This document shows positions 3,000 to 27,501 of a DNA stretch of 33,717 nucleotides, piece by piece; positions within the stretch are counted from its first letter, which is position 1; every line of letters starts with the position of its first letter. Origin of the DNA: an uncultured Verrucomicrobiota bacterium (GTDB taxonomy: Bacteria; Verrucomicrobiota; Verrucomicrobiia; Limisphaerales; UBA9464); the NCBI GenBank assembly GCA_903880005.1, contig CAIRNV010000274.1, forward strand, positions 1-33,717, written 5' to 3'. A program made the translations under genes and the position numbers. The notes under the pieces were generated by a model, which saw nothing but the letters and a program-made list of their open reading frames with translations, was not told the origin of the DNA and ran no database searches.

Positions 3000-5213
3000 T
3001 CAGTTCGATGGGTTGGTGGCCGGGGCCGGAGGCGTGCCGCCCATCCGCGCGAGGACGTTGCACCGGCGAATCACGTCGGGGTCGCGGCTAGCAACCACCA
3101 GGGTCCACGGGGCCTCCTTGCCAAAGATCGCCGGGGCCAGGGCATCGAGCGTGGCGGGCTCCAGTCCGTCCAACACCTCATCCAGCAAGAGGACGCCCGG
3201 CCGCCCCGCCAGGGCTCGCGCCAACACCAACCGCGTGCGCTGATGCCTCGACAACGGCCTGCCTCCCAGCATCAGCGGCGTGGCCAAGCCGGCTGGCATC
3301 GCCAGCACGTCCTCCAGCAAACCCACCGCGCGCAAGGCCTCGCGCGCCTCCTCGTGCCCCACGTCGCCCCGGCCCATCCGGACGTTGTCCTCAATGGAGG
3401 TGCTGATCACCTCATCCTGCCGCACAAACGCCACGCGCTGGCGCAACGCGGGCAATGACCATTGCCGGACGTCGATCCCATCCACGTTCACATGGCCCTC
3501 GGACGGCGACCGAAGCCCGAAGATCAACTCCAGCAAATCCGAGGCGCCGCCCCCTTGCGGGGACACCACGGCGGCGCGCTCGCCGGGTTGGATCACCAAG
3601 GACACCTCGTGCTCGGTTCCATGACGGAAGCCGCGCACCTCGATGCGACCCGGTCCCGACATCGTGACCGCCGACTCGCCGCCCACGCGCTCGACGCCGA
3701 GATCCACCAGGTAACCCAGCTTGTCGGCCGCCGTCAGGGCATCGTACCACGCTTCGAGGTGCTTCCCCAGCTTGGCGACCGACGCGAGCACCGCGTTGAC
3801 GATGAGCTCCGACGCCACGAGTTGCCCGAGGGTCAGCTCGCCTTCCAGGACGAGCATGCCGCCCACGACGAGCAGGGCCGACGACGCCAACGCTTGGATC
3901 AAAAGCAAGCCGCAGACCTGTCGCATCAACACGCCGAAGTGCTCCCTGCGCCGGGACAGGTACTCCCGCGCGAGGTGGTCGGCCCGCTCCGTCGCCATCC
4001 GGCTGCCACCCGGCGTCTTGAACACGTTCGGGAAGTGGGCCAACTCCTCCAGCCATCCCGCGATGGCGTACTTCGACATCGACTCCTTCACGCTCGTGCG
4101 CACGGCCCGTCGGCCGAGCGCGAACACCACCACCACGACCGCCGCCAGCATCACGAGGTCGAAGGCCAGCAACGAAGGATGGTAGAACGCCAGCACCACC
4201 ATCCCGATCACCGCCGACAACACCAAGTTGATGCCATCCAGCAAGAGCAACGACGCGCTCTTCTGAACCGTGGTCACGTCGAAAAAGCGGTTCACCAGCT
4301 CCGGTCCATGGATGTGATCCATCGCCTCGGCCGTCACCCGGGGCAGCCGGCAGGCAAGGTCGGCGACGATCCGGACGAACACGCGCCGCTGGATGACCTC
4401 GGCAAGATAGTGTTGCACGGCCCTCACGAAGGCCATCAGGCCCAGGAAAACCAACAGCGCCACCGCCAGCACCACCAGGGCCTGGATGAACAACGGTTGC
4501 TGCCCCCCAAACGCGATGTTGTTGACCGCCGCGTCCACCGTCAGCGGAACCGCCAGGTACAAGACGCCCGTGATGACCGAGAACAACAGGATCGCCCACA
4601 CGTCTGGCAACTCGGCACGCATCAGCCGGAACAGGCGCTGATGCGGCTCCGGATGCCCGTGACCGTGACCGTGCCCGTCGTCATGGCCTGGATCATGATG
4701 ACCCTCCAAGGGAGCGACCGGCATCGCAGGATGCACGACCAGGAAGTCCGTGGACTCGCGCGCGCTCGACAACCCCAAACGTCGCGCCAAGGCAACGCGC
4801 CCCACGTTCTCCCAGCCTGGCTGCCCATCCGAGCGACTCACGCGCGCGTCGAAGAGGCTCCTTCCCGCCAGCACGACCCAATCTCCGGCCGCCGTGACTG
4901 CGACGAAGGGATTGCTGGAGGTCGCCCGCCACACGGCGTCGGCCAACGGCATGCGAACCAAGGTCCCGCGCATCCCGCACGCCTCGGCCGCCGTCGCAAG
5001 ATCCCCAAGACCCCGAGCAGGATCATCGTGGTGCTCCGACGGGGAACGATCCAACCCGCGCAGCCCGTGGTCGGCGGCCGCCAAGGCAGGCACCGAACGG
5101 AATGGGATGCCGAGCAACCCCGCCAATTGCTCCAGGACGCGGGACAACCGGTGCGTTGCCGCAGGTCGTTGCGAGTCGTCGCCTGATTGCTTCGCCTTCG
5201 AGCCCGTTTCCAT
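3000..5213 (-). CDS. ABC exporter, type I secretion-like, with degenerate ATPase and C39-like domains
   Basis: A 737-residue fusion in three parts. Residues ~20-165 resemble the C39-like domain of peptidase-containing exporters (ATAAEACGMRGTLVRMPL, then a GDWVVLAG strand), but the usual His before the VVL strand is Asp and no catalytic Cys is seen. A linker at 172-191 carries eight histidines. Five or six membrane helices (about 205-475) form an ABC exporter core. The ATPase domain (about 520-725) has clear degeneration: the Walker A position reads SPQGGGASD (551-559) with Ala for the essential Lys; the signature is LSRHQ (654-658) rather than LSGGQ; the H-loop His is Ser709. The Q-loop Gln599 and Walker B Asp678/Glu679 remain. 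First gene of the operon with HlyD and TolC partners. It should reach the membrane, but whether it hydrolyses ATP is doubtful. Confidence 0.85.
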   Translation of the reverse strand: METGSKAKQSGDDSQRPAATHRLSRVLEQLAGLLGIPFRSVPALAAADHGLRGLDRSPSEHHDDPARGLGDLATAAEACGMRGTLVRMPLADAVWRATSSNPFVAVTAAGDWVVLAGRSLFDARVSRSDGQPGWENVGRVALARRLGLSSARESTDFLVVHPAMPVAPLEGHHDPGHDDGHGHGHGHPEPHQRLFRLMRAELPDVWAILLFSVITGVLYLAVPLTVDAAVNNIAFGGQQPLFIQALVVLAVALLVFLGLMAFVRAVQHYLAEVIQRRVFVRIVADLACRLPRVTAEAMDHIHGPELVNRFFDVTTVQKSASLLLLDGINLVLSAVIGMVVLAFYHPSLLAFDLVMLAAVVVVVFALGRRAVRTSVKESMSKYAIAGWLEELAHFPNVFKTPGGSRMATERADHLAREYLSRRREHFGVLMRQVCGLLLIQALASSALLVVGGMLVLEGELTLGQLVASELIVNAVLASVAKLGKHLEAWYDALTAADKLGYLVDLGVERVGGESAVTMSGPGRIEVRGFRHGTEHEVSLVIQPGERAAVVSPQGGGASDLLELIFGLRSPSEGHVNVDGIDVRQWSLPALRQRVAFVRQDEVISTSIEDNVRMGRGDVGHEEAREALRAVGLLEDVLAMPAGLATPLMLGGRPLSRHQRTRLVLARALAGRPGVLLLDEVLDGLEPATLDALAPAIFGKEAPWTLVVASRDPDVIRRCNVLARMGGTPPAPATNPSN

Positions 5214-5694: not shown

Positions 5695-6581
5695 GACCGC
5701 GCGGCGGGTCGTAGGGCACGACCCGCGCGAGGCGCAAAAAATGCGCGGGATCACGCCGCCGCGGCAAGCCCGTTTTGCGAGATATGGAAATGGCGGGCAG
5801 GAACCCCTCGCCGAGCCTGATACCTTTCCCGCCTCTCCGGCGATGGCCCGCTCACCTGCATGATGAGGGAGCTGGGCCCAGCCCGGACAACGCGGTCGGA
5901 TCGGTGGTGCTGGCTGGATCTCCTTCCCCCCCACGCTCTGTACCTTGCCGATCATCCCGCAGACGCGGGAACGGTCGCCCACGCCTCGTCCGGGTGAAGA
6001 GTCTGCCGCCCCCCAAAAACGGAATTGTTCCAGCCCGGGCGTGAGAAGGCACGGAAGGCACCGGCGTGATCACCCTGGCGGACGGACTCGTGAAGGATTC
6101 ATGGGAATCCCGGCGATAGGCGCACGGACGCGTGCGTGCAGGCGCGGGAACGCCCGCCATGCCGGAAACATGGCCTGTGCCGCTCCTTGACACGATCGGT
6201 CGCGGTTGGGGCATGATGAAGGAGTGTTAGCCATGCGGCGCAGGGGATGAAGGCGGCCCGGCTTGGAAGCTTTCCGCGGCAAAAAACTTGATGGCGCGGC
6301 AAGGAATCCAACAAGACGGAGAGTCAGCGGGGCATTCAAGCCCAAGGTGGGCCAGACACGAACACCGGAGATGTGGCACGAGAGGATCCAGCGAACATGA
6401 CCTGCCCCGGCGCGTCGCCCCGGCCACGGGTCATGGCATCCTTGGATCGGTGCCCGTCACATTTGCCGTCACATACTTATCCATGACAAAGCAGGGACCC
6501 AGCCCAGGACAGGACCCCAAGAGTTCCACGTCCAAGACCGGGCGCAGCGGCGCGCGGCGGACCCCGCGCGGGAGTGGTGGC
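5695..6581. other. Long intergenic region without a recognisable gene
   Basis: About 890 bases between the tRNA and the helical-repeat gene. The several short open frames on both strands are proline/arginine/serine-rich and look like high-GC noise. An open frame runs in phase with the downstream gene from 6288, but its residues before 6582 look non-coding. I looked for tmRNA, RNase P and SRP RNA landmarks and saw none. A short GCGC-A/T-GCGC palindrome lies near 5732-5746. An unrecognised small RNA is possible but unsupported. Confidence 0.5.
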
Positions 6582-8582
6582 ATGCGCAAACGTCGTCGCC
6601 AATGGCAGGGCATGCGGCGCGGCCTGATGATGTATTTCGGCAGCTACGGGGGGGGTGAGTTCGGCTTCGAGGTTTCCAATCCGGGAGTGATCTTGCCGGA
6701 ATTGGAGGTGATCACAGAAGTCAAGCGGTGGGTGGAGCAAACGAAAGAGAGGCTGAAGGACCCGAGGTTCCTGGCTATCGCGTCGGGGGTGTTGGCATTG
6801 TTCGCGGGTTTTCTCGTCCTGGGGTTCTCGTCTTGGCCCGTATCCAGGGCGGCGGGAGAGGCTGGGAACCGGGTTTCGGGCTTTCGGTGGATTCAAGCCA
6901 GCGCGGCTGTCTTGGTGGCGGAGGTGACCACGTCCGACGCCAGCAATGCCTCCAGCATCCAGACCTGGAAGGCGGCCACCTTGGCGCACCGGCTCAACCC
7001 CAAGGCCAGCGCGCGATTCCTCGCGGCGGTGGCCCGTCACCCCGGCATGCTGGACGAAGTCACGGCTCAATTGGTGAGCGCCCGGGCGCTTGCGGTCCTC
7101 AATGGGGAACTGGGGCCCGAGGCCGGCCAACCATGGGCGGCACGAGCCCTTTGGGCGGCAGGTCGGTTCGATGAGATTCCCGGTGCCTGGGCGGTGAGCG
7201 AAGCCTCGGAGGGGGAGACCGCGCGGATGGGGGTCGAGGCGGCGTTGGAGGTGGGTCATCCGGAGTTGGTCCCCGAGCTTTGGAATCGGTTGCCAGCAGG
7301 GATGCGGGAAGATCCTTTGGCACAGGAGTGTCATCAGGCCTGGGAGGCGGGATGGGGGGAGCCTCCGGGTGGGCCAGGGTTGCGCAAGGTCCGCGAGTGG
7401 GTGCGGCAAAAGGAGGAGGAGGAAGAGGAAACGGCAAGACGGGCCCACTGGGCGATCCTGGCGGCCAAGGGCGCTGGGGATGTGCGGTTGGCCGAGGCAG
7501 GCCTGCGGTCCTTGCTGCGGATGAAGAAGGATCATCCCCGGGATCACGTGGCGTATTGGCGGACGTTGGACAGTGGCGGACGCAGCGAGGAAGCCCGGGA
7601 CCTTGCCGCCGCCTACGGGATGGTCGCGGCGTCCACGTCCTCGTCCCAGGACGTGGTCGCGGCCTGGACACGACTGGGGATGCCGGAGCTTTCGATGGAG
7701 TTCCTGCTGAGGTTCCGGGACACGGCTCGGTCGTCGTTGCCGCTGGCGGCCGCGATCACACGGAGCTTGGTCGAGGCCGGGCGATGGACAGACCTGAACC
7801 TGTGGTCATCGGCGCTGCGCGGCTCCGGGGGGTTTCCCGAGTCCAATGCCTACGCCGACTTCCTGGAGTTTGTGGCCCTCAACGGGATGGCCTTGGACGA
7901 GGGCCATGGAAGCACGGAGGCCAGGCGTGAACTAGCAGAGCAACGGTACCGGCGGGTGATCGACGCGATGCCCAAGGACGCACGGATGGCGGAGGACATG
8001 GCATGCACGTTCGATCTGCTGGGCTACGAGGCCTTCGGGGCGAGGGCGAGGGACCTGTCGCGAAAGATGGAGCCCGGCACCCTGGGGGAGTGGCGAAAAC
8101 TGGCCCTCGTGGCGCGGGGCGCGGGGATGGATGACCTGATGCTGGCGGCGGCCCTGAGGATGTTCGAGTTGGGCGGCGGCGACACGATGAGCCGGATTTA
8201 CGTGCTGGAGGCGTTGGCCGAGGGCGTTCGGGTGCGCGACGGCATTCAGCCAAAGGCCTTGGATCGGGATTCCGGCCGGGAGGCTGTGGTGATCGAGGAA
8301 CTCCACCGCGCGGTGGTGATGGCGGTGATGGGACGCAAGTCGGAGGCGAGGACCTTGCTCAAGGGCTTGCCGTCCGAAGGCCTTGGGCCAAGGGAGCGGA
8401 CATGGCGGCATGTGGCCTTGGTCGAGAGCGCCTCCCCCACGGAACCCACATCGACGGTGCGAGCCTGGGTGCAGGCCATTGAGCCTGGTTGGCTTGGGAA
8501 GAATCGGCGCGCTTGGTTGGCCGGGTTGCTGGCCACGCCGGAGACCAAGGCTTCCAGCCCGAAGGGCGGATCCCCCCGTTAG
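6582..8582 (+). CDS. Membrane-anchored helical-repeat (TPR-like) protein of unknown function
   Basis: I chose the ATG at 6582 because GGAG sits seven bases upstream (6571-6574); the frame stays open to 6288, and an ATG at 6627 is another option. The 666-residue product begins with a very basic cytoplasmic tail (MRKRRRQWQGMRRG). One transmembrane helix follows at about 62-83 (FLAIASGVLALFAGFLVLGF). The remainder is alanine/leucine-rich and almost wholly helical, with repeated 30-40 residue helix pairs (e.g. ALWAAGRFDEIPGAW, TLDSGGRSEEARDLAAAYG, AVMGRKSEARTLLKG), as in degenerate TPR/Sel1-like solenoids. A run of five glutamates (about 313-317) sits mid-protein. The bulk should lie in the periplasm as a protein-binding scaffold. 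It stands alone and converges on the PQQ-propeller gene. I do not recognise a named family. Confidence 0.75.
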   Translation: MRKRRRQWQGMRRGLMMYFGSYGGGEFGFEVSNPGVILPELEVITEVKRWVEQTKERLKDPRFLAIASGVLALFAGFLVLGFSSWPVSRAAGEAGNRVSGFRWIQASAAVLVAEVTTSDASNASSIQTWKAATLAHRLNPKASARFLAAVARHPGMLDEVTAQLVSARALAVLNGELGPEAGQPWAARALWAAGRFDEIPGAWAVSEASEGETARMGVEAALEVGHPELVPELWNRLPAGMREDPLAQECHQAWEAGWGEPPGGPGLRKVREWVRQKEEEEEETARRAHWAILAAKGAGDVRLAEAGLRSLLRMKKDHPRDHVAYWRTLDSGGRSEEARDLAAAYGMVAASTSSSQDVVAAWTRLGMPELSMEFLLRFRDTARSSLPLAAAITRSLVEAGRWTDLNLWSSALRGSGGFPESNAYADFLEFVALNGMALDEGHGSTEARRELAEQRYRRVIDAMPKDARMAEDMACTFDLLGYEAFGARARDLSRKMEPGTLGEWRKLALVARGAGMDDLMLAAALRMFELGGGDTMSRIYVLEALAEGVRVRDGIQPKALDRDSGREAVVIEELHRAVVMAVMGRKSEARTLLKGLPSEGLGPRERTWRHVALVESASPTEPTSTVRAWVQAIEPGWLGKNRRAWLAGLLATPETKASSPKGGSPR

Positions 8583-13237: not shown

Positions 13238-14995
13238 ATGTCATCGCACACGACCAACCTCCATGTCCTCACTTGGGTCCAGGAACAGGTACGCCTCTGC
13301 CAACCCGACCGCGTGGTGTGGTGCGACGGGTCGGAGCCGGAGCGGGACCGCTTGCAGGAGCAGGCCGTGCGCGAGGGCATCCTGGTCCGGTTGAACCCGG
13401 ACAAGCACCCGGGCAGCTTCTATCACCGGTCCAACCCGAACGACGTCGCGCGGGTCGAGCAACTGACATACCTCTGCACGCCCACGGAGGAAGAGGCCGG
13501 CCCCACGAACAACTGGGCCGAGCCCCGGGCGATGTATCGACGCCTCGAAGGCCTGACGCGCGGCGCGATGAAGGGGCGCACCCTCTTCGTGGTCCCCTAC
13601 CTCATGGGGCCCCCGGGCTCCCCGCTCGCCAAGGTCGGGGTCGAGCTCACCGACTCCATCTACGTCGTCCTCAACATGCGCATCATGACGCGCATGGGCG
13701 ACGTGGCGTGGCAGCAGCTGGGCGACTCGGACGACTTCAACCGCGGGCTGCATTGCATGCTCGACCTGAACCCGGAGCGCCGCCTCATCTGCCATTTCCC
13801 CCAGGACAACACCATTATCTCGGTGGGCAGCGGCTATGGCGGCAACGTGTTGCTGGGCAAGAAGTGCCTCGCCCTCCGGATCGGATCCTACCTCGGCCGG
13901 CGCGAGGGCTGGCTCGCCGAGCACATGCTGATCCTGGGCGTGGAGTCGCCCGACGGCGAGAAGACGTTCGTGGCCGCCGCGTTCCCGTCCGCCTGCGGCA
14001 AGACCAACTTCGCGATGCTGGTCCCGCCCACGAGCTTCCAAGGCTGGAAGATCTGGACCGTCGGCGACGACATCGCGTGGATGTACCCCGGGGCCGATGG
14101 ACGCCTCTGGGCCATCAACCCCGAGGCCGGCTATTTCGGCGTCGCGCCCGGCACCAACGGGAGCACCAACCCCAACGCCATGGCCACGTTGTCCCGCGAC
14201 ACGATCTTCACCAACGTGGCCTTGAAGCCCGACGGCACGGTTTGGTGGGAAGGCCACGATGATCCCCCGCCCGCCGAGTGCATCGACTGGCAGGGACGGC
14301 CATGGACGCCGTCGTCCAAGGACAAGGCCGCGCATCCCAACTCACGCTTCACGGCGCCCATGGCCAACAACCCGTCCCTGGCGCCGGAGGCCAACCTCGC
14401 CCAGGGAGTCCCCATCTCGGCCATCATCTTCGGCGGTCGCCGCGCCAGCACGCTCCCCTTGGTCTGCGAGGCCTTCAACTGGGTCCATGGCGTGTATCTC
14501 GGGGCCACCATGGGCTCCGAGACCACGGCGGCGGCGGCCGGGTCCGTCGGGCAGGTGCGGCGCGATCCCATGGCCATGCTGCCCTTCTGCGGGTACAACA
14601 TGGGGTGGTACTTCCGTCACTGGCTGAACATGCGCCGCCGCGTGAAGCTCCCGCCCCACATCTTCCAGGTGAACTGGTTCCGGAAGGGCGCCGACGGCCG
14701 CTACCTGTGGCCGGGTTTCGGGGAGAACATGCGCGTGTTGAAGTGGATCATCGATCGCGCGGCCGGCCGAGTGGGCGCATGGGAGACGCCCTTGGGTTGG
14801 GTCCCCCGCACGCAGGACTTCCCCTTGGAGGGCATGGAGGGCTTCTCCGCGGCCGACTTCGAGGCGCTGCAAAACATCAACATCGAGGAATGGCGCCGCG
14901 AGGTGCTGTCCCAGGACGAGCTCTTCATGAAGCTCTACTCGTTCCTGCCCAAGGAGATGATCTTCCAGCGCGAGTTGCTGGTGGCTCGCCTTTGA
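13238..14995 (+). CDS. pckG: Phosphoenolpyruvate carboxykinase (GTP)
   Basis: GTP-dependent interconversion of oxaloacetate and phosphoenolpyruvate, the entry step of gluconeogenesis. 585 residues, close to the ~600 of bacterial GTP-type enzymes. Motifs seen: the oxaloacetate/PEP-binding YYLR-equivalent region, SVGSGYGGNVLLGKKC (about 195-210), the P-loop-like kinase-1a sequence FPSACGKTN (249-257) whose Cys is the GTP-type hallmark, the kinase-2 metal site VGDDIAWM (275-282), and NPEAGYFGVAPGTN (295-308). The C-terminal GETTA-equivalent mobile lid reads SETTAAAAG. Divergent from the adenosyltransferase gene. A TTGACC hexamer at 13151-13156 could be a -35 box, but no good -10 follows at the right distance. 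Confidence 0.97.
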   Translation: MSSHTTNLHVLTWVQEQVRLCQPDRVVWCDGSEPERDRLQEQAVREGILVRLNPDKHPGSFYHRSNPNDVARVEQLTYLCTPTEEEAGPTNNWAEPRAMYRRLEGLTRGAMKGRTLFVVPYLMGPPGSPLAKVGVELTDSIYVVLNMRIMTRMGDVAWQQLGDSDDFNRGLHCMLDLNPERRLICHFPQDNTIISVGSGYGGNVLLGKKCLALRIGSYLGRREGWLAEHMLILGVESPDGEKTFVAAAFPSACGKTNFAMLVPPTSFQGWKIWTVGDDIAWMYPGADGRLWAINPEAGYFGVAPGTNGSTNPNAMATLSRDTIFTNVALKPDGTVWWEGHDDPPPAECIDWQGRPWTPSSKDKAAHPNSRFTAPMANNPSLAPEANLAQGVPISAIIFGGRRASTLPLVCEAFNWVHGVYLGATMGSETTAAAAGSVGQVRRDPMAMLPFCGYNMGWYFRHWLNMRRRVKLPPHIFQVNWFRKGADGRYLWPGFGENMRVLKWIIDRAAGRVGAWETPLGWVPRTQDFPLEGMEGFSAADFEALQNINIEEWRREVLSQDELFMKLYSFLPKEMIFQRELLVARL

Positions 14996-16173: not shown

Positions 16174-16893
16174 ATGGCATTGGTGCGGCTCCAAAAATTG
16201 CTCGCCGACGCAGGCATCGCCTCGCGTCGGGCCTCCGAGAAGCTGATCACGGGCGGTCACGTCACGGTGAATGGTGCCGTCGTGGACGCCTTGGGCTACA
16301 AGGTCCAGCCTGACGCCGTCGTCGTGGCCGTGGATGGCCAACCCGTCCGTGCCCGGCGCAAGGTGTACATCGCCCTGAACAAGCCGCGCGGCGTCTTGTG
16401 CACCCGATCAGACCCCGAGGGCAGGCCCACCGTGATGGACCTGCTGCCGAGGGAATGGAGCGTCCTCTTCCCCGTCGGCCGACTGGATCGGGAGAGCGAG
16501 GGCCTGCTGTTCCTCACCAACGACGGGCATTTCAGCCTTCAACTGACCCATCCACGTTACGGGGTGCGCAAGCGCTACGTGGCGGTCATCGAGGGCAAGT
16601 TGATGGAGTCTGCGCTCGGCCAGTTCACGACCGGCATCGAGGACGAAGGCGAGATCCTCAAGGCCGAGCGAGCCCGGTTGCTGGCATCCAACAACAGCCA
16701 CAGCACCGTGGAACTGGAGTTGGCCCAGGGCAGAAACCGCGAGGTGCGCCGGCTCTTCGCGGCGCTGGGACACGAGGTCGTGGAACTCCGCCGCACGCAG
16801 GTCGGCCCCATCCGACTGGGGGAATTGCCCGTGGGCAAGTGGCGCGTGTTGACCCCGACCGAGGTCAAATCGCTCTTGCCGGGTCACGCCTGA
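16174..16893 (+). CDS. Pseudouridine synthase, RsuA/RluB/RluE family
   Basis: 239 residues from the ATG at 16174; an in-frame TTG at 16159 is less likely. It isomerises specific uridines in rRNA to pseudouridine. The N-terminal S4 RNA-binding domain (about 3-60) shows LQKLLADAGIASRRASEKLI and GHVTVNG. Then comes the family's LNKPRGVLCTRSD segment and the catalytic motif GRLDRESEG (102-110) with catalytic Asp105. The later LTHPRYGVRKRYVAVI and GRNREVRRLFAALGHEVVELRR blocks are typical of RsuA/RluB. Whether the target is 16S or 23S rRNA cannot be settled by eye. The S4 domain and length fit RluB slightly better than RluE. It follows the small basic protein by 19 bases. Confidence 0.94.
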   Translation: MALVRLQKLLADAGIASRRASEKLITGGHVTVNGAVVDALGYKVQPDAVVVAVDGQPVRARRKVYIALNKPRGVLCTRSDPEGRPTVMDLLPREWSVLFPVGRLDRESEGLLFLTNDGHFSLQLTHPRYGVRKRYVAVIEGKLMESALGQFTTGIEDEGEILKAERARLLASNNSHSTVELELAQGRNREVRRLFAALGHEVVELRRTQVGPIRLGELPVGKWRVLTPTEVKSLLPGHA

Positions 16894-16942
16894 AAAAGGA
16901 ACGTTGCCAAGCTCGGGCGGTCGCCCGGGCCTCATTGCGCTG

Positions 16943-18097
16943 ATGAAGCTAGCACTCTCCCTACTGGGCGCCTTCGCGCTCGTCTCCTCGTACCCCAACG
17001 CCTGGGCCGCCGGGAACCGCGTGGCCCTCACGGGCAACGCCAACCTCCGGTCCAAGCCGTCCCTGGACGCGGAGATCCTGGCTTCCCTGAAGAAGGGCGA
17101 CGTCCTGGAGGCATCCCCCAACGTCGTGGCCAATCCCAAGGCCACGTCCGACGAACCCACGGAATGGGTCGAGCTCACGGCCCCGGCTTCCGCCAAGGTT
17201 TGGATCGCCGCGGCGCTCGTGGACGTGCCCTCCAAGAAGGTCAAGGCCGAGCGCGCCCACCTTCGTGCCGGTCCCGGCACCAACTTCGCCGAGGTAGGCC
17301 ATGTGCCGAAGGGGACGGAGGTGGACGTGGCCAATCGCCTGGACGGTTGGATCCGGATTTCCGCGCCTGCGGGCGCCGTCAAGGGATACGTCGCCGCCAG
17401 CCTGACCCGGCCCGTGGACCAAGGCCCCACCGACCCCGCCAACGCGTCCTCGGGCAAGGTTGCTCCCGCACCCACGAATCCCCCGATGGCCCGCATGGTG
17501 CCTCCGCCGCCTTCACGCCCGCCCGCCCTTCGGCCTGGCACCACGCCCTTGCCGCCGAACGCCAGCCGACCAGTGGTGATGGCTGGGCGCGTCGTGCCCC
17601 CGGGCTCCAGCGTCGCGGCACGCCCCATCGTGGTGCCGCCGCCCGTGCCCGCGAGCCAGCCCGTGGCCAACACCGTGCCAGCCCTCCCAGCGCCTGTTCC
17701 CACTCCGGCTGAAACGGCCAACGCGGCGGCCGTCCCCACGGAATCCGCGCCCCCCACACCGTCCCTGCCGTCCGCGGCCCCGGTGGAACCTTCGATTCCC
17801 GTGACCTCGGGGTCTGGTCGCCAGGCGGAACTTGTCTTCATGAACGAAAAGCCGCGCCAAGTGGTTCGCCAAGGCGTGGTGGCGTTGGCCGTGAGCCCCC
17901 AAGCACCCGGTCGTTATCAACTCGATAGCTTCCGCCGCGGCGAGGGCACGCTGGGTTTCTTGATCAGCGACGACGCGACCCTCGACTTCGAGAAATGGCG
18001 CGCCAAGCAGGTGGTCATCCAAGGCGAGGAATACCGTGACGCGCGGTGGCGCACCCGCAGCGTGATCAAGGTCAAGTCCATCGAGGCCGTCCCCTGA
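16943..18097 (+). CDS. Secreted protein with two bacterial SH3 domains and a proline-rich linker
   Basis: 384 residues from the ATG at 16943; the TTG at 16904 would place extra polar residues before the signal. Residues 1-23 are a signal peptide (LALSLLGAFALVSSYPNAWA). Two SH3b domains follow: one at about 25-95 (NANLRSKPSLDAEILASLKKGD) and one at about 98-155 (AHLRAGPGTNFAEVGHVPKGTE). These commonly bind peptidoglycan or peptides in the envelope. Residues ~160-290 are Pro/Ala/Val-rich and low complexity, probably a flexible cell-wall-spanning linker. The last 95 residues form a separate small domain (VVRQGVVALAVSPQAPGRYQ ... VIKVKSIEAVP) that I cannot name. It converges on the MsbA-like gene with a 31-base gap. 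An envelope role is inferred. Confidence 0.85.
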   Translation: MKLALSLLGAFALVSSYPNAWAAGNRVALTGNANLRSKPSLDAEILASLKKGDVLEASPNVVANPKATSDEPTEWVELTAPASAKVWIAAALVDVPSKKVKAERAHLRAGPGTNFAEVGHVPKGTEVDVANRLDGWIRISAPAGAVKGYVAASLTRPVDQGPTDPANASSGKVAPAPTNPPMARMVPPPPSRPPALRPGTTPLPPNASRPVVMAGRVVPPGSSVAARPIVVPPPVPASQPVANTVPALPAPVPTPAETANAAAVPTESAPPTPSLPSAAPVEPSIPVTSGSGRQAELVFMNEKPRQVVRQGVVALAVSPQAPGRYQLDSFRRGEGTLGFLISDDATLDFEKWRAKQVVIQGEEYRDARWRTRSVIKVKSIEAVP

Positions 18098-18128: not shown

Positions 18129-19940
18129 CTAACCCCCGGACTGCAATTGATGCAGTCGAGCGTAGAGGCCTCCCAGGGCGATCAACTCCGCGTGCGTCCC
18201 CTGTTCCACGATCCTTCCATCCTCCATCACCACGATGCGATCCGCCTTTTGAACGGTGGACAGTCGATGGGCGATGCAAAGCGTCGTGCGCCCCGTCATG
18301 AGTCTTTCCAGGGCGTCCTGGACCAACTTCTCGGACTCTGAATCGAGCGCGCTGGTGGCCTCGTCGAGGACCAAGACCGGGGCGTCCCGCAGGATGGCCC
18401 GCGCGATGGCGATGCGTTGACGCTGGCCGCCCGACAACGCGGACCCGCGGTCGCCGACCTGGGCGTCGTAGCCGCCGGGACGTTCGATGATGAAGTCATG
18501 GGCATTCGCCATGCGCGCCGCCTCCTCGATTTCCCGGGCCGTCGCCCCCGGCCGCCCAAGCCCGATGTTGGTGGCAATGGATTCGGAGAACAGAACGGGA
18601 TCCTGCGTCACGATGGCAAACTGCGCCCGGACCTCGGCCATGCGGGCATCGCGCAGGTCGGTGCCCCCCAACCGGATGCACCCCTGTCGCGGGTCATGCA
18701 ACCGCAGCAGCAAGGCCGCGAGCGTGCTCTTGCCCGATCCGCTCGGTCCAACGACCCCCACGAAGCTCCCGGCCGGTATCGTCAGCGACACGTCCCGCAG
18801 CACGGGCCTCTCGTCGTAGGCGAACGTCACCCGGTCGAGGACGATGTCCCGGCCTCGTGCCGACACCGGGACCGGGTGAGCCGGGTCCGCGAACTCGGGT
18901 TGGGTGGCCAGGAGCTCGAACACGCGTTCACTGGCGGCGCGGGCCTGCTGCAACAGGGCTTGGAGGCGGCTCAGCTCCTTGATGGGCTTGTACAGCATGA
19001 ACAGCCCCAGCACGAATTGCAGGAAGTCCCCGGCCGTCACGCCCGTGGATGGCGTCAAGGCGACGTAGGCAAAGACCCCCGCCATGCCGAGTGATCCGGC
19101 GAACTCGATCATCGGCCCCGGCAATTCCACGCCGCGCACCGTGCGCATGGTCTCGGAGACGAATCGACGCGACGCCCGCGCGAAACGCCCGACCATGAAG
19201 TCCTCCAGCCCGTAGGCCTTCACGACCCGTTGACCGGCGAAGCTCTCGTTCATGGTCGAGGCCTGCTCGGCCAGGTGCGACTGCGACGCCTGGGCCGCCT
19301 TGCGGACCTTTCGCCCATACACCACCACCGGCACCACGCACACCGGCAACAACGCCAGCGACAGGACCATCAGCTTGGGTTGCTGCGTGGCGAGCAACGT
19401 CGCCAGCACCAGCACTTGCACCGGGTCCCGCACGGCCACCGAGAAGCCATGCGCCACCGCATGCCGCAACATGGAGGGGTCGTTTGAAATCCTCGACATC
19501 AGCTCGCCCGTCCGGCTCGCGCCAAAGAAGCCCATTGAAAGATGGTGCAAGTGGCGAAACACCGCCTGCTGCACGGCGGCCATGGTCTGGGTGGCCGCCC
19601 AATTCATGGAATACGCCCCCACGTACTCGAAGACCCCGCGCAACAACATCACCACCGGAATCAAGGCGATCCCCCAGACCATCACCCCGGGTCGTTCCAT
19701 GGCCGACAAACGCTCGATCATGCCCCGGGCCCAACCCGACATGGACGCCGGCAACGCCTCCAGGATCGCCGCGCCCGGGGCCTTCCCCGCCGTGGGAAAC
19801 ACCAGGTCCACCACCAGTCGCACCACGGTCAGCAACAGGGCGTTCGTCGCCGCAAACAGGACGCCGCTCGCAATCCCAAGCGCGACCCGGCCTCGATAGG
19901 GACGCACGAACGGCAGGAACCTGCGCAGGAACTCCATCAT
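18129..19940 (-). CDS. MsbA-like ABC exporter (lipid/multidrug, fused permease-ATPase)
   Basis: 603-residue half-transporter, expected to act as a homodimer in the inner membrane, flipping lipids such as lipid A core or exporting hydrophobic compounds. Start at 19940 because GGGAGG lies at 19951-19956; the second ATG three bases on is less well spaced. Six helices span about 15-320, with the exporter coupling segment FFGASRTGELMSRISND (about 139-155). The ATPase domain is fully canonical: Walker A GPSGSGKS (398-405), Q-loop VTQDPVLFSESI, signature LSGGQ (502-506), Walker B VLVLDEATSALD with Asp526/Glu527, and H-loop His558 (CIAHRLSTV). It therefore contrasts with the degenerate ABC protein at 3000-5213. 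The substrate is not determined by the sequence alone. Confidence 0.92.
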   Translation of the reverse strand: MMEFLRRFLPFVRPYRGRVALGIASGVLFAATNALLLTVVRLVVDLVFPTAGKAPGAAILEALPASMSGWARGMIERLSAMERPGVMVWGIALIPVVMLLRGVFEYVGAYSMNWAATQTMAAVQQAVFRHLHHLSMGFFGASRTGELMSRISNDPSMLRHAVAHGFSVAVRDPVQVLVLATLLATQQPKLMVLSLALLPVCVVPVVVYGRKVRKAAQASQSHLAEQASTMNESFAGQRVVKAYGLEDFMVGRFARASRRFVSETMRTVRGVELPGPMIEFAGSLGMAGVFAYVALTPSTGVTAGDFLQFVLGLFMLYKPIKELSRLQALLQQARAASERVFELLATQPEFADPAHPVPVSARGRDIVLDRVTFAYDERPVLRDVSLTIPAGSFVGVVGPSGSGKSTLAALLLRLHDPRQGCIRLGGTDLRDARMAEVRAQFAIVTQDPVLFSESIATNIGLGRPGATAREIEEAARMANAHDFIIERPGGYDAQVGDRGSALSGGQRQRIAIARAILRDAPVLVLDEATSALDSESEKLVQDALERLMTGRTTLCIAHRLSTVQKADRIVVMEDGRIVEQGTHAELIALGGLYARLHQLQSGG

Positions 19941-19950
19941 GGCGCGCGTT

Positions 19951-19956
19951 CCTCCC
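19951..19956 (-). promoter_or_regulatory. Shine-Dalgarno sequence for the MsbA-like gene
   Basis: GGGAGG on the minus strand, ten bases before the ATG at 19940. It is one of the few strong ribosome-binding sites in the window and fixes this gene's start over the in-frame upstream extension. Confidence 0.7.
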
Positions 19957-20237
19957 GCGGCGGGCACGCGTCATCGCCCGCCGTCGTCTTCAGTGGATGG
20001 CCCTCGTTCATGGGAAACAACTTGGCCCCGACCATGGCGTCTCGGCCACGGCGTTCCCATCCCATTCTCGGGGCGTCGCCGCGTACCGCGCATCCCAAAG
20101 TTGTGGGTGATCCCGAGAATGTCGTGGATCGCTCAACACCGGGAGATCCTCCCGCCCATTCGGGACGCCACTCCATGCCGCCCGCACGGCCGGGCTTCGC
20201 CGGTGGCAATTCACCCGACACGCGATAGCGTGCCGGC

Positions 20238-20957: not shown

Positions 20958-21078
20958 ATCCGGCCGGTCCCAGCCCCGCCGGCGGCACGGGTCACCACTT
21001 CAACGTGGTGCCGGGGACGCATCGGTCCCACCCTGCGAACGCTTGAGGCGAACGAGACTTCATCCGGCGTGGCGTGAG

Positions 21079-22584
21079 ATGGCGGCGTGGTTGTGGGCAA
21101 GTTGCGCGCTCTCGGGCGCGTCGCCGGCCATGCAATCAGTCGATCCCGCCGGCCTCGGCGCGGCAGAGCAGGCGCTGTTGGCGTCGGCCCAGGGCCTCCT
21201 GAATCGCGACGGCGCGCGCGTCTGGCTCAAGGCCGGCGGCCTCCAAGCGCGCACGTTGGAAAGCCTCGTGCCCAGGCCCGTGTTGGAATCCGTCCCCGGA
21301 CCCTGGGCCGTCATCGCTTCAAACCGATCGCGCCTCGGCCCATTCATCACCTGCAACGTCGCCGATCATTCCCTGAACCTCGCGACCTCGTTGGCCGGGC
21401 AGCGGGGCTGGCTGGTGGTCGATGCCTCCCTACGGAGCCAGGCCCTCGCCCTCGGGCTGCACGAGGCCATGGATGCACGGGGCGCGAAGCCCGGCGCGTT
21501 TGCTCGGCATGGCAAGCAGGCAGCCCGCGGCATCCTGATTCATCAACCCCCGTCCAAGGCGCTGCACCTGCGCGACCTCGCGGTGGCACTTGGCGCATGG
21601 GTGGACTTCGAGCCGAGCCATCCTGATGACACCCCGCTGGCCACGATGGTTCGCGAATTGGGCCCGGGCACCGACGTCCTCGGCTGGGGCAGCGACGAGC
21701 GCGAATTCGTGGGGGCCGTGTCCCAGGGCGGCGGATGGGTCCTTCCTGCCGACTGGGCGTTGAACCTGTCCGCCCACCGCTGGCTCAAGCCCGCGACGAC
21801 GCCGCGCGTGGAATCGGCCCCGCCCCCTTCCCCGCCAAGGCTCGGGGAGCGGGTGGTTGCGTTCGTCATCTCCGACGGGGACAACCTCCAATGGCTGCTC
21901 GGCCGGTTCACGGAGGCCCCGGGGTTTTGGGCAAGCCCGCGCCGAGGATCCTTTGCCGTCACATGGGAATTGGCCCCGCAACTTCGCCGCTGGGCGCCTG
22001 CCGCCGATGGCTGGCTGCGAACCACGGCGACGGCGCAGGATGCCTTCGTCGGCGGCCCCAGCGGCGGCGGCTATTACTTTCCCCACTGGCATCCGGATCC
22101 CGTGAAGGCCGCTCACGCCTCCGCCCGGCTGCTGTCGGAGGCGGGCCTGACGGTCACCAGCGTCCTCAACGACGGGGGCGACCCCGGCGAGGTGGCGTCG
22201 TTGCTGGCCAACCCAGGCGTCGAAGGCGTCTTGTACAAGGACTACGCCCCCTACAACCGCCGACGCGGGGCGATCACCTGGCATCAGGGCAAGCCCGTCG
22301 TGGCCTATCGCTACCTCCTATGGGAGCAACGCCGCGCCGACGGATCCTTGCGACCCGACTGGCTGCCCGAGGGCGTCGCCGCCGCCGTGGCGAGCCAGCC
22401 GGCCGACCCGAAGGGTTCCGACGACGCCTACGCGTTGATCCAGGTTCACGCGTGGTCGTTCGCCAAGCAGGGAGGACCCATGGAGGCGATCCACGACACG
22501 ATCCAACGCCTGCCCCCGGGCACGCGGGTCGTCACGGCGCCCGTGTTGATTCGTTGGCTCCAGGAATTCCGGGCTCCGCGGTAA
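21079..22584 (+). CDS. GxGYxYP-family secreted protein (putative glycoside hydrolase-like)
   Basis: 501 residues from the ATG at 21079. This start gives a short signal-like N-terminus (AAWLWASCALSGASPAMQ); the upstream TTG alternative adds basic, non-hydrophobic residues. Two hallmarks of the GxGYxYP family, annotated as putative glycoside hydrolase, are visible: FVISDGDNLQW (262-272) and GGGYYFPHW (329-337), the motif after which the family is named in a slightly variant form. The N-terminal 240 residues match the family's partner domain (QGLLNRDGARVWL and a long Asp/Gly-rich core). The C-terminus carries VHAWSFAKQGGPMEAIHDT. It is probably periplasmic or secreted. Catalytic activity for this family is predicted rather than demonstrated, to my knowledge. 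Neighbours give no substrate clue. Confidence 0.87.
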   Translation: MAAWLWASCALSGASPAMQSVDPAGLGAAEQALLASAQGLLNRDGARVWLKAGGLQARTLESLVPRPVLESVPGPWAVIASNRSRLGPFITCNVADHSLNLATSLAGQRGWLVVDASLRSQALALGLHEAMDARGAKPGAFARHGKQAARGILIHQPPSKALHLRDLAVALGAWVDFEPSHPDDTPLATMVRELGPGTDVLGWGSDEREFVGAVSQGGGWVLPADWALNLSAHRWLKPATTPRVESAPPPSPPRLGERVVAFVISDGDNLQWLLGRFTEAPGFWASPRRGSFAVTWELAPQLRRWAPAADGWLRTTATAQDAFVGGPSGGGYYFPHWHPDPVKAAHASARLLSEAGLTVTSVLNDGGDPGEVASLLANPGVEGVLYKDYAPYNRRRGAITWHQGKPVVAYRYLLWEQRRADGSLRPDWLPEGVAAAVASQPADPKGSDDAYALIQVHAWSFAKQGGPMEAIHDTIQRLPPGTRVVTAPVLIRWLQEFRAPR

Positions 22585-22814: not shown

Positions 22815-25151
22815 ATGTTGAACCAGTGGGCGGCCTACGTACGGCACGGGCCGAGGCTCTTGATGTGGGCCTTGGGTCTTTTTGCAGGAACCGGCCTCGT
22901 GTCCCCACGCGTCGGGGCGGTGGACGTGCCGGGGCCCTATCAACTGGACCCCGTCTGCTACACGCCGGCGCCGCGGGCCAGCCTCACGCCCGGCAAGCGC
23001 CATCCCGGCACGATCCGCATGGCCGAGCGCCTCGCCAAAATCCACCGCGACCGCATCCCAGGCTCCACGATCTTCTTCAACGACAAGGCTGCGGAATCCC
23101 TCGCCGCCGCCCTCCCCGCCGCATCCGGCCCCGACGATCCGTTGCGGATCCGCTTCGATCTCGCGCGCGAGTCCATGCAAGCAGGTCGTCCGGACCAAGC
23201 CCTCAACCTTTACCTGGACATGGACCGCATCCTGGCGGGCGGCAGTCGTGCCCTGCCGGCCCGGGCCATGGCTGACCTCCGCTTGTCGCGGGCAGTGGCC
23301 TTCCTTCGCCTCGGCGAGCAGGAGAATTGCATCGGCAAGCCCCACGCCGAGTCCTGCTTGTTCCCTCTTTCCGATTCGGCGCGGCACCATGTTGGCCGCG
23401 GATCGCGCGGTGCCATCGAGATCCTCTCGCAGATCCTCGGGGAAAACGCCGCCGACACGCGCGCCCTGTGGCTGCTCAACATCGCCTACATGACCCTGGG
23501 CGAATACCCGGACAAGGTCCCCGAGCACTGGCTCATCCCGCCGGACACGTTCGCCTCCGAGCATTCCATGCCCCGCTTTCCCAACGTGGCGACCGGGGCC
23601 GGCCTGGATCTCCTCGACCTCGCCGGAGGGGTCGCATGCGACGACTTCGATGACGACGGACTGCTCGACGTCATGGCCTCGTCCTGGGGCTTGGACGGGC
23701 AGCTTCGGTTCTACCACAACAACGGCGACGGCACGTTTGTGGAACGTACGTCGGAGGCGGGCTTGGTCGGCTTGCTGGGCGGGTTGCAGGTGTATCCGGC
23801 GGACTACAACAACGACGGCCGGCTCGACCTGTGGATCCCGCGAGGCGCGTGGCTCGGCAAGGCGGGTCGCATCCCGGGCTCGCTGCTGCGCAACGAGGGC
23901 CATGGCACCTTCGCGGACGTGACCGAGGAGGCCGGCGTCCTTCGCGCGCGCCCCACCCAGGCCTGCCGTTGGCTGGACTTCGACCTCGACGGCGACCTGG
24001 ACCTTTTCGTGGGCAACGAAACCACGGACCCGAACGACCCCGAGCCCTGCGAGCTGTTTCGCAACAACGGCGACGGCACCTTCACCGAGTGCGCGGCGGA
24101 CGTCGGCCTCGCCCTCAAGCTCTTCGTCAAGGGCGTGGCCTGCTCCGACTACGACAACGACGGCGACCCCGACCTTTACCTCTCCGTTCGGGCGGGACCC
24201 AACGTCCTCCTCCGCAACGACGCCACCGCACCCGTCCCATCCCCATCCTCGCCCACCAAGGCTTCCCGCCGGGTCTTCACCGACGTCAGCATTCCGGCAC
24301 GCGTCACCCAGCCCAACTTAAGCTTCGCAACGTGGTTCTTCGACTTCGACAACGACGGATGGGAGGACCTGTTCGCATGCGGCTACGGGATCAACCACGT
24401 GGGGGACGTGGCGGACGACTACTTGCATCGGCCCAGCAAGGGCAGCACGCCGCGCATGTATCGCAACCTGGGGGACGGCACCTTCACCAACGTGACGGCA
24501 GAGGTGGGGCTGCGCCGCGTCTGCCACACGATGGGCTGCTCCTTTGGCGACCTCGACAACGACGGATGGCTCGACTTCTACCTCGCCACGGGCGACCCCG
24601 ACCTGGCCACCTTGATCCCGAACCGGATGTTTCGGAACGACCGCGGCCTTCGCTTCCACGACGTCACCACCGCCACGGGCACCGGCCACCTGCAAAAGGG
24701 CCACCAGGTGTCCTTTGCCGACCTCGACAACGACGGTGATCAAGACGTGTACGTCAGCCTCGGCGGGGCCTACTCCGGCGACATTGCGCGGAACGCCCTG
24801 TTCCTGAACCCGGGCTCGTCCAACCGTTGGGTCACGCTTCAACTCGTTGGAACCCGCGCCAACCGGTCCGCCATCGGCGCCCGCGTGCGCGTGGATCTCA
24901 AGACGCCTGCCGGACCGCGATCCATCCAGCGCACCGTGGGAGCCTCCGGAAGCTTCGGGAACAATCCCCTGCGCCAGGAGATCGGGCTCGGCGACGCCCT
25001 GGCCATCGACAAGGTCACGATCCAATGGCCCGGGGACCCAGCGCCGCAGGTGGTCCCTGGCATCGAGCCCGGTGCCTTCTGGCGCATCACGCAAGGAACA
25101 ACCCAACCCGCCCGCCTCGCCCTCAAGGCCCTGCGCCTGTGCGCGCGGTAA
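22815..25151 (+). CDS. Secreted VCBS/FG-GAP repeat protein with ASPIC/UnbV domain (CRTAC type)
   Basis: 778 residues with an N-terminal signal segment (LLMWALGLFAGTGLVSPRVGA). Residues ~60-240 are helical with a TPR-like block (REILSQILGENAADTRALWLLNIAYMTLGEYP-like region). From about residue 277 the protein has seven calcium-binding FG-GAP/VCBS loops with the D-x-D-x-D-G pattern: DFDDDGLLD, DYNNDGRLD, DFDLDGDLD, DYDNDGDPD, DFDNDGWED, DLDNDGWLD and DLDNDGDQD, predicting a beta-propeller. The final ~100 residues (from about 674, NRWVTLQLVGTRANRSAIGARV, and VTIQWPG) form the ASPIC/UnbV domain. Such CRTAC-like proteins are common in Verrucomicrobia and Planctomycetes and are usually extracellular or periplasmic. 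Their biochemical role is not established. It appears monocistronic. Confidence 0.93.
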   Translation: MLNQWAAYVRHGPRLLMWALGLFAGTGLVSPRVGAVDVPGPYQLDPVCYTPAPRASLTPGKRHPGTIRMAERLAKIHRDRIPGSTIFFNDKAAESLAAALPAASGPDDPLRIRFDLARESMQAGRPDQALNLYLDMDRILAGGSRALPARAMADLRLSRAVAFLRLGEQENCIGKPHAESCLFPLSDSARHHVGRGSRGAIEILSQILGENAADTRALWLLNIAYMTLGEYPDKVPEHWLIPPDTFASEHSMPRFPNVATGAGLDLLDLAGGVACDDFDDDGLLDVMASSWGLDGQLRFYHNNGDGTFVERTSEAGLVGLLGGLQVYPADYNNDGRLDLWIPRGAWLGKAGRIPGSLLRNEGHGTFADVTEEAGVLRARPTQACRWLDFDLDGDLDLFVGNETTDPNDPEPCELFRNNGDGTFTECAADVGLALKLFVKGVACSDYDNDGDPDLYLSVRAGPNVLLRNDATAPVPSPSSPTKASRRVFTDVSIPARVTQPNLSFATWFFDFDNDGWEDLFACGYGINHVGDVADDYLHRPSKGSTPRMYRNLGDGTFTNVTAEVGLRRVCHTMGCSFGDLDNDGWLDFYLATGDPDLATLIPNRMFRNDRGLRFHDVTTATGTGHLQKGHQVSFADLDNDGDQDVYVSLGGAYSGDIARNALFLNPGSSNRWVTLQLVGTRANRSAIGARVRVDLKTPAGPRSIQRTVGASGSFGNNPLRQEIGLGDALAIDKVTIQWPGDPAPQVVPGIEPGAFWRITQGTTQPARLALKALRLCAR

Positions 25152-25622: not shown

Positions 25623-25735
25623 GCATGATTTCAAGCCGCGCGAAGGGCGGGACGATTCAACGGGATCATTCCTGCCCGGCAAACCATCCCAAGGGTTGGC
25701 TCCGGCTCGCCGCCGTGGCATAACCCTCCCCGCTC

Positions 25736-27160
25736 ATGGAATACGAAGCGGTCATCGGCCTCGAAACGCACGTCCAGCTCAAGACCCGCTCCAAGATGTG
25801 GTGCGGCTGCGCCAATGCCTTCGGCGCCGACCCCAACACCCACGTCTGCCCCACCTGCCTGGGACTCCCCGGCGCCCTCCCCGTCGCCAATGCCGAGGCC
25901 CTCCGCCTCACCGTCCTCACCGGCCTCCTCCTCGGCTGCGACATCCCCGGCTACGCCAAGTTCGACCGCAAGAACTACTTCTACCCCGACTCCGCCAAGA
26001 ACTACCAGATCACCCAGTACGACCAACCCTCCACCCGGGGGGGGAGACTCGAGTTCGAGCTCGACGGCGCCGTCCACGCCGTGCGCATCACCCGCGCGCA
26101 CCTCGAGGAGGACGTCGGCAAGAACGTCCACTTCGACCGCCATTCCGGCGTTGATTTCAACCGCGCCGGCGTCCCGCTCCTCGAGATCGTCTCCGAGCCC
26201 GACATCACCTCCGCCGACATGGCCCACGCCTACCTCAACGCCCTCGTCGAGGTGCTCGTCCGCGGCGGCATCTCCGACTGCGACATGGAGAAGGGCATGG
26301 TGCGCTGCGACGTCAACGTCTCCGTCCGGCCCAAGGGCTCCCCAACGCTGGGGGCAAAGATCGAGATCAAGAACATGAACACGTTCTCCGGCGTCCGCCG
26401 CGCGCTCGACTACGAGATCCCCCGCCAGATCGCCGCCGTCCAACGCGGCGAAACCCTCCGCCAGGAAACCCGCCGCTGGGACGACGTCGCCGGCATCACC
26501 GAGCCCATGCGCTCCAAGGAGGACGCCCACGACTACCGCTACTTCCCCGACCCCGACCTTCTCCCCTTCACGCCCGCCGCCGACTGGGTCGAGTCGCTGC
26601 GGTCCCTCGTGCCGGAGCTTCCCCTCGCACGCAAGCAACGGCTGGCTTCCCAATACGGCTTGCCGGCCGGCGACGCCGAGGTCCTCAAGTCCAACCCCGA
26701 CCTCTGCGCCCTCTTTGAGAAGGCCGCCGAGGGCTATCCCCACCCCAAGGCCATTGCCAACTGGGTCATCAACAACCTCCCCGCCCAGCTCGCCGCCTCC
26801 GGCCTTTCGATCTCCAACCTGCGCTTCCCGCCCGCCCACCTTCGCGAGCTCGGCTCCCTGGTCGAATCCGGCCGCATCAGCTCCAAGATCGCCCAGGACG
26901 TCTTCGCGGACATGTTCGCCACGGGCGAGGCCCCGGCGGCCATCGTCGAGCGCAAGGGCCTCGCCCAGGTCAGCGACACGTCCGCCATCGAGGCCTTCTG
27001 CGACCAAGCCATCGCCGCCAACCCCGGCCCGGCCGCCGACTTCAAGGCCGGCAAGGACGCCGCCCTCAACTTCCTCAAGGGCCAGGTCATGAAGCTCTCC
27101 AAGGGCAAGGCCAACCCGGGCCTCGTGGGCGACATCCTCGCCCGCAAGCTGCGCGCCTGA
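25736..27160 (+). CDS. gatB: Aspartyl/glutamyl-tRNA amidotransferase subunit B
   Basis: 474 residues. The tRNA-binding kinase subunit of GatCAB, which activates Glu-tRNA(Gln) or Asp-tRNA(Asn) with ATP for amidation. The start MEYEAVIGLETHVQL is family-typical. Seen: zinc-site cysteines in MWCGCANAF and VCPTCLGLPG, the DRKNYFYPDSAKNYQITQYD block (about 80-99), EEDVGKNVHF, DFNRAGVPLLEIVSEPDI, the KIEIKNMNTFSGVRRALDYEI region, and the C-terminal helical tail (KGQVMKLSKGKANPGLV) typical of the GatB/YqeY domain. GatA and GatC are not adjacent. Codon bias is extreme toward C at third positions, which also keeps a 603-residue antisense frame open. Confidence 0.97.
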   Translation: MEYEAVIGLETHVQLKTRSKMWCGCANAFGADPNTHVCPTCLGLPGALPVANAEALRLTVLTGLLLGCDIPGYAKFDRKNYFYPDSAKNYQITQYDQPSTRGGRLEFELDGAVHAVRITRAHLEEDVGKNVHFDRHSGVDFNRAGVPLLEIVSEPDITSADMAHAYLNALVEVLVRGGISDCDMEKGMVRCDVNVSVRPKGSPTLGAKIEIKNMNTFSGVRRALDYEIPRQIAAVQRGETLRQETRRWDDVAGITEPMRSKEDAHDYRYFPDPDLLPFTPAADWVESLRSLVPELPLARKQRLASQYGLPAGDAEVLKSNPDLCALFEKAAEGYPHPKAIANWVINNLPAQLAASGLSISNLRFPPAHLRELGSLVESGRISSKIAQDVFADMFATGEAPAAIVERKGLAQVSDTSAIEAFCDQAIAANPGPAADFKAGKDAALNFLKGQVMKLSKGKANPGLVGDILARKLRA

Positions 27161-27501
27161 CATGCGCCCACGGCAGCCCCGCCACCCGCGACCGGCCGCG
27201 GGACCGCCCCTCACCGTCCAGCGGGAGCAACGCAACAAGCGGTTGGGTTGAAGCCAGCCTGCGGCGCGGTGCTCCATCGCCCGCTCCCATTCCCGTCCCT
27301 GCGCCCTCCAGGTCGGAAGAAAGTTGAAACCCAACCCTTTGGGAGCGGGTTGCTTCCCAGAGAATGAGCACAAGAGCCCGCGGTACGGACCCCGCACGAC
27401 TTCATGCCGATGCTTCACCATTCGGGGGCGAAGCCGGACCATCCCGCACTACGGTGCGTGGCCTCACACGCGTGGCGGTGTCTCGCCGCTGATGCGTGCC
27501 G
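27161..27501. other. Intergenic region between gatB and the ABC ATPase gene
   Basis: About 340 bases with no supported gene. An imperfect inverted repeat pairs GGTTGGGTT (near 27241) with AACCCAACC (near 27328), and a second GC-rich palindrome-like patch (CCCTTTGGGAGCGGG) follows. The region probably holds the promoter of the ABC ATPase/permease pair, but I cannot identify convincing boxes. Confidence 0.45.

Follow-up and report, generated by a model that had tools for sequence, protein, structure and literature searches.

The 33,717-nt stretch of DNA analysed here (the window), taken from a metagenome-assembled verrucomicrobial genome (G000:C274), carried a three-gene operon that probably encodes a T1SS-like tripartite assembly of an ABC dimer, an HlyD adaptor and a TolC duct, in which the ABC protein would be a conserved pseudo-ATPase and transport would not be driven by its own ATP hydrolysis. 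The genes followed the order ABC, HlyD, TolC, with intergenic gaps of 1 bp and then 3 bp (Table 1). As demonstrated at the sequence level, the fold, the operon and purifying selection were retained, while an entire family from several phyla has lost the Walker A Lys, Q-loop Gln, second signature Gly and H-loop His, the residues predicted to be needed for gamma-phosphate binding, for the onset of hydrolysis and for closure of the ATP sandwich.

Table 1. Features of the operon, motifs of its ABC protein and other annotated genes of the window; counts refer to the 94 non-redundant ABC homologues of the family.
Feature	Position	Strand	Basis or remark
ABC protein, C39-like domain + TMD + degenerate NBD, 737 aa	3000..5213	(-)	HlyB/PCAT1-like fold, full length
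N-terminal C39-like domain, residues 15-165, without peptidase Cys	4719..5171	(-)	AF2 model of lone domain
His-rich linker GHHDPGHDDGHGHGHGHPEPH, residues 172-192	4638..4700	(-)	between C39-like domain and TMD
ABC exporter TMD, residues 190-503	3705..4646	(-)	PF00664 above cut-off; AF2 helices
Walker A SPQGGGASD (551-559), Lys position = Ala557	3537..3563	(-)	Lys in 16/94, none close
Q-loop position Gln599, then one-residue deletion	3417..3419	(-)	Gln in 2/94
Signature LSRHQ (654-658) replacing LSGGQ	3240..3254	(-)	second Gly retained in 8/94
Walker B LLLDE (675-679), intact	3177..3191	(-)	Asp 92/94, Glu 60/94
H-loop His position = Arg710	3084..3086	(-)	P-gp alignment; His 4/94, Arg 69/94
HlyD-type adaptor, 450 aa	1646..2998	(-)	
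TolC/OEP outer membrane factor, 500 aa	140..1642	(-)	PF02321, E 6e-23
GTP-dependent PEP carboxykinase	13238-14995	(+)	Pfam
GxGYxYP putative glycoside hydrolase	21043-22584	(+)	Pfam
FG-GAP/ASPIC protein	22815-25151	(+)	Pfam

The ABC gene was an uninterrupted frame of 737 codons, as a preliminary description of this DNA had stated, and the open reading frames and Pfam domains bore out its claim that the membrane domain, HlyD and TolC were intact and open. Pfam detected both ABC_membrane (39.9 bits, cut-off 28) and ABC_tran (66.6 bits, cut-off 25) in one chain. The AF2 model of the protein had a pLDDT of 86.7 and a Z of about 26 against ABC exporters; PCAT1 was the top match of a Foldseek search with this model, and PCAT1 and HlyB were the best full-length matches. 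The AF2 model of the C39-like domain gave a Z of 12.2 against 3b79 and of 11.6 against the HlyB CLD (3zua). No Cys was found ahead of helix 1, so that the domain had the C39-like fold without catalytic Cys that characterizes an HlyB-type CLD. The operon also contained the complete T1SS gene set, with the ABC protein, the HlyD-type adaptor and the TolC-type duct encoded together. Compared with HlyB/LssB-type T1SS, the ABC protein shared the C39-like, TMD and NBD fold over about 725 columns, and the operon likewise included HlyD and TolC, with a putative RLS-type adaptor tip whose spacing was two residues longer in the window protein. Unlike in those systems, every ATP-site motif of the window protein but Walker B was degraded, the curated NCBIfam T1SS models scored far below cut-off (TIGR03375, the LssB score, 170.8 against 693.1; TIGR01843, 63.7 against 208.65; TIGR01844, 32.4 against 225.15), and no RTX or other cargo gene was recognised for the operon. 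The protein resembled PCAT1 in its C39-type N-terminal domain but differed from it in the missing catalytic Cys and in being predicted to have no functional ATP site.

The Walker A Lys, the Gly pair of the signature and the H-loop His of a functional ATPase were all missing from the window protein. The preliminary description had read the Walker A Lys as Ala, the signature as LSRHQ and Walker B as intact, and all three readings held (Table 1). It had also placed Ser709 at the position of the H-loop His; this was off by one, because the profile alignment to P-glycoprotein, gapless from Thr704 and made likewise to canonical exporters, puts Arg710 there. The Q-loop had been called intact: Gln599 was indeed present, but a one-residue deletion followed it, and Gln was itself atypical of the family.

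We then considered how far these changes extended beyond the window. Searching 96 relatives yielded orthologues of about 45-68% identity; 29 of these were aligned, and the Walker A Lys was absent from all of them. An HlyD-based scan of GTDB genomes brought up related loci, at least 578 in number. The best 80 were retained; these came mostly from Verrucomicrobiota, and also from Planctomycetota, Acidobacteriota, Myxococcota and some bins labelled Longimicrobiales or Burkholderiales. All but one of 86 loci (85) contained an ABC homologue of the degenerate family, in most cases immediately upstream of HlyD, and the gene order ABC-HlyD-TolC recurred. Motifs were counted over 94 non-redundant ABC homologues adjoining the same HlyD type. 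The Walker A Lys was found in 16 of them (all distant), the Q-loop Gln in 2, the second signature Gly in 8 and the H-loop His in 4, and the Walker B Asp-Glu pair was retained in 60. No member had all five motifs; the best had three, and 80 of the 94 had at most one. The verrucomicrobial clade was entirely without the Walker A Lys. As a control, the canonical exporters of the same genomes all matched GxxGxGK[ST], and nearly all had the H-loop His. In the tree, the degenerate family stood apart from canonical ABC exporters with an SH-aLRT of 100. The Lys-retaining members all lay to one side of a branch, which, with the reservation that long outgroup branches leave the rooting inside the family unsettled, suggests early loss of the H-loop and Q-loop residues and later loss of the Walker A Lys as the parsimonious order. 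More divergent relatives on sphingomonad and Bacteroidota plasmids retained the gene order ABC-HlyD-TolC with motifs still more degenerate, and further order-level members were likewise degenerate. Culturable bacteria with a homologue include Brevifollis gellanilyticus and Novosphingobium aromaticivorans DSM 12444 (SARO_RS19820). In Aureibacter, Pfam detected the TMD and no longer the NBD. As judged from these alignments, the degenerate pattern is old, family-wide, spread over several phyla and far beyond chance. The preliminary description had proposed an alignment of homologues as a check on whether the substitutions were conserved across a clade with HlyD and TolC neighbours, and the pattern was conserved family-wide. 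It had also named close homologues with both canonical residues as the mark of a lone decaying copy; no close homologue had the Lys, and two congeners (L010 and L011) had the His only. One divergent relative (L057, 5301-7025, minus strand) is a point against the pseudo-ATPase reading in that it had both the Walker A Lys and the H-loop His, although the glycines of its P-loop, the Gln of its Q-loop and the Asp of its Walker B were changed.

The selection analysis bore directly on the alternative that the ABC gene is decaying under relaxed constraint and becoming a pseudogene. In one genus-level orthologue set, the median dN/dS values were 0.079 (NBD), 0.088 (TMD), 0.092 (HlyD) and 0.115 (TolC). 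The value of the NBD was similar to that of the TMD, and the dead NBD therefore appears to be needed. Constraint was distributed unevenly within this domain: the nucleotide-site columns were relaxed (mean entropy 1.47 versus 0.41 in canonical exporters), and the remaining NBD columns were near normal (1.79 versus 1.54). Decay would agree with broken copies in two relatives, L067 and L063, and with the comparison to the closest congener, in which the ABC proteins were 64.5% identical while HlyD reached 87% and TolC 89%. However, an NBD dN/dS of about 0.08 is well below 1 and largely refutes it, the frames were intact in nearly all orthologues, and the degenerate pattern was ancient and common to several phyla. 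These results indicated that pseudogene formation is scarcely credible as an explanation, and they strongly supported the view of the preliminary description that the clean frame does not reflect simple decay, as did the retained operon. A lone decaying gene was thus ruled out by clade-wide conservation and dN/dS, and a sequencing or frameshift artefact was ruled out by the same features in many independent assemblies. As for the two broken copies, the ABC gene was in pieces and HlyD had two stops in G024, and the ABC gene had two TAG codons and HlyD was disrupted in G035.

Previous studies have reported that ABC heterodimers commonly occur in which one site is degenerate, and that site 1 of Pdr5, like the window protein, has no Walker A Lys and no H-loop His (PMC7756269). 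In addition, the atypical MARTX T1SS employs two ABC proteins (PMC3034196). On these grounds, the window protein could be the pseudo-ATPase half of a heteromer whose separate active ABC half is encoded elsewhere, as in RtxB/RtxE, TmrAB or Pdr5, which was one of the two alternatives of the preliminary description. The conserved operon neighbourhoods held no second ABC gene. A search of the operon's own genome identified three other fused exporters, which occurred in 50, 49 and 42 of 50 taxonomic-family genomes, and the operon's HlyD occurred in 30 of these 50; being present regardless of the operon, none of the three tracks it or is a dedicated partner. The ABC gene at 18129-19967 of the window was rejected as a partner, being canonical (GPSGSGKS, LSGGQ, AHRLST) and widespread in the taxonomic family irrespective of the operon, and so was the gene conserved upstream in one genus, a pseudouridine synthase. 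The motifs of the chain itself also argue against a heteromer. In Pdr5, the chain deficient in Walker A and H-loop leaves the degenerate signature to its partner, so that NBD2, not NBD1, has the changed signature (PMC7756269). The window chain combines Walker A/H-loop defects with a signature defect, and either composite site of a heterodimer would therefore be impaired. Pdr5, TmrAB and TM287/288 retain one consensus site, unlike the window chain, whose operon encodes no partner. The four-component MARTX T1SS would be comparable in its atypical energisation but has two ABC proteins per locus, RtxB and RtxE, both required for secretion (PMC3034196). Collectively, an active heteromeric partner was disfavoured by a comparison that covered fused TMD-NBD exporters and neighbourhoods, and we regard it as unlikely.

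The other alternative of the preliminary description, an export or envelope-bridging machine that does not depend on its own ATP hydrolysis, thus appears better supported than a partner half. In the mechanism that we propose, the ABC protein would form a homodimer with neither of its composite ATP sites functional. The TMD would serve as an inner-membrane gate or as an anchor for HlyD-TolC, and the NBD and C39-like domains might act as structural or docking parts for cargo or another factor. Any transport would draw on something other than the protein's own ATP hydrolysis, for example a concentration gradient, the proton motive force or a factor that acts in trans from the cytosol. Secretion through HlyB depends on the proton motive force in addition to ATP (PMC3034196), and this precedent makes another energy source plausible, if unproven.

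The residues that remain leave room for a different reading, in which the ABC protein is an ATP-gated or slowly hydrolysing channel, the leftover glycines and the Walker B Asp bind nucleotide, and binding alone gates the TMD. According to column entropy, G554 and G556 of Walker A and D678 of Walker B were still conserved, so that weak nucleotide binding by the window protein is possible, and in other ABC proteins ATP binding is often retained at a degenerate site (PMC7756269). The 16 relatives with the Lys and the 60 with Glu679 are likewise consistent with such a channel, and the distant Lys-retaining members may bind ATP. Nevertheless, position 557 (76th percentile of entropy), Q599 (88th) and position 657 (78th) were among the more variable NBD columns, the verrucomicrobial clade had lost every Lys, and most ATP-site motifs were gone in the Aureibacter and sphingomonad relatives. 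Nucleotide-dependent gating therefore seemed quite improbable, and a non-hydrolysing ABC protein that acts as a structural or gating subunit of a widespread 'pseudo-T1SS' is, from the sequences at hand, the best reading. The broader proposal, that such loci constitute phylum-spanning tripartite exporters in which ATP hydrolysis has been replaced entirely, the ABC dimer is a non-hydrolysing gate and HlyD-TolC export is powered by a gradient, a trans-acting factor or the proton motive force, is offered tentatively.

Transport powered by ATP is the defining property of ABC exporters. If the proposed reading is true, the T1SS scaffold does not need its engine in order to function or to be gated, and the family would provide a natural experiment that separates the ATP-requiring parts of ABC transport from those inherent in the TMD-HlyD-TolC conduit itself. 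Active export is perhaps overstated in the annotations of these phyla, because such genes carry plain ABC-transporter labels. A literature search, in which most subscription papers were beyond reach, found no description of a T1SS ABC family with both sites dead; the degenerate ABC sites covered by a review are located beside a working site (PMC7756269). The nearest report concerns the SecA_DEAD-HlyD-M50 loci of Planctomycetes and Verrucomicrobia (PMC4452313), which come from the same phyla as the present operon and resemble it in having T1SS-like adaptors that lack the usual ABC motor. However, a SecA-like ATPase is encoded at those loci and an ABC transporter is not. Identity with the SecA-HlyD locus that Kamneva et al. 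described was ruled out, since that system is distinct and includes no ABC protein.

The adaptor family had the C-terminal pattern LRQGVRANGWVLLxRVPLWxEVWRxxNGFPP. In the window HlyD, the putative tip consisted of R184, L188 and G-L-A-S197, an RLS-type arrangement two residues beyond the standard spacing RxxxLxxxxxxS; the tip R, L and S were conserved, and many relatives had the standard RLS/RLT spacing. A His-rich, GHGHGH-type linker recurred in many verrucomicrobial members, including L009, L010, L011, L095 and L096, and the linker of the relatives had a median of 12.5% His versus 2.5% overall; metal binding by the linker is possible. At 11 wider loci from four phyla (L095, L096, L099, L102, L109, L112, L127, L134, L141, L143 and L145), the gene immediately upstream of the ABC gene encoded an NhaR-type LysR regulator and was mostly in divergent orientation, and three of the four regulators tested exceeded the NCBIfam NhaR cut-off. 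Together, the NhaR-type neighbour and the His-rich linker are tentative leads towards a role connected with ions or metals. Elsewhere in the window, long open frames at 25631-27442 (-), 16408-17841 (-) and 6288-8582 (+), with no Pfam match at E 1e-5, were putative genes. The 1385-aa product of the frame at 27957-32114 (+) had a peptidase M1 domain at its C-terminus and a region resembling an ABC-2 permease, the latter scoring below its Pfam cut-off.
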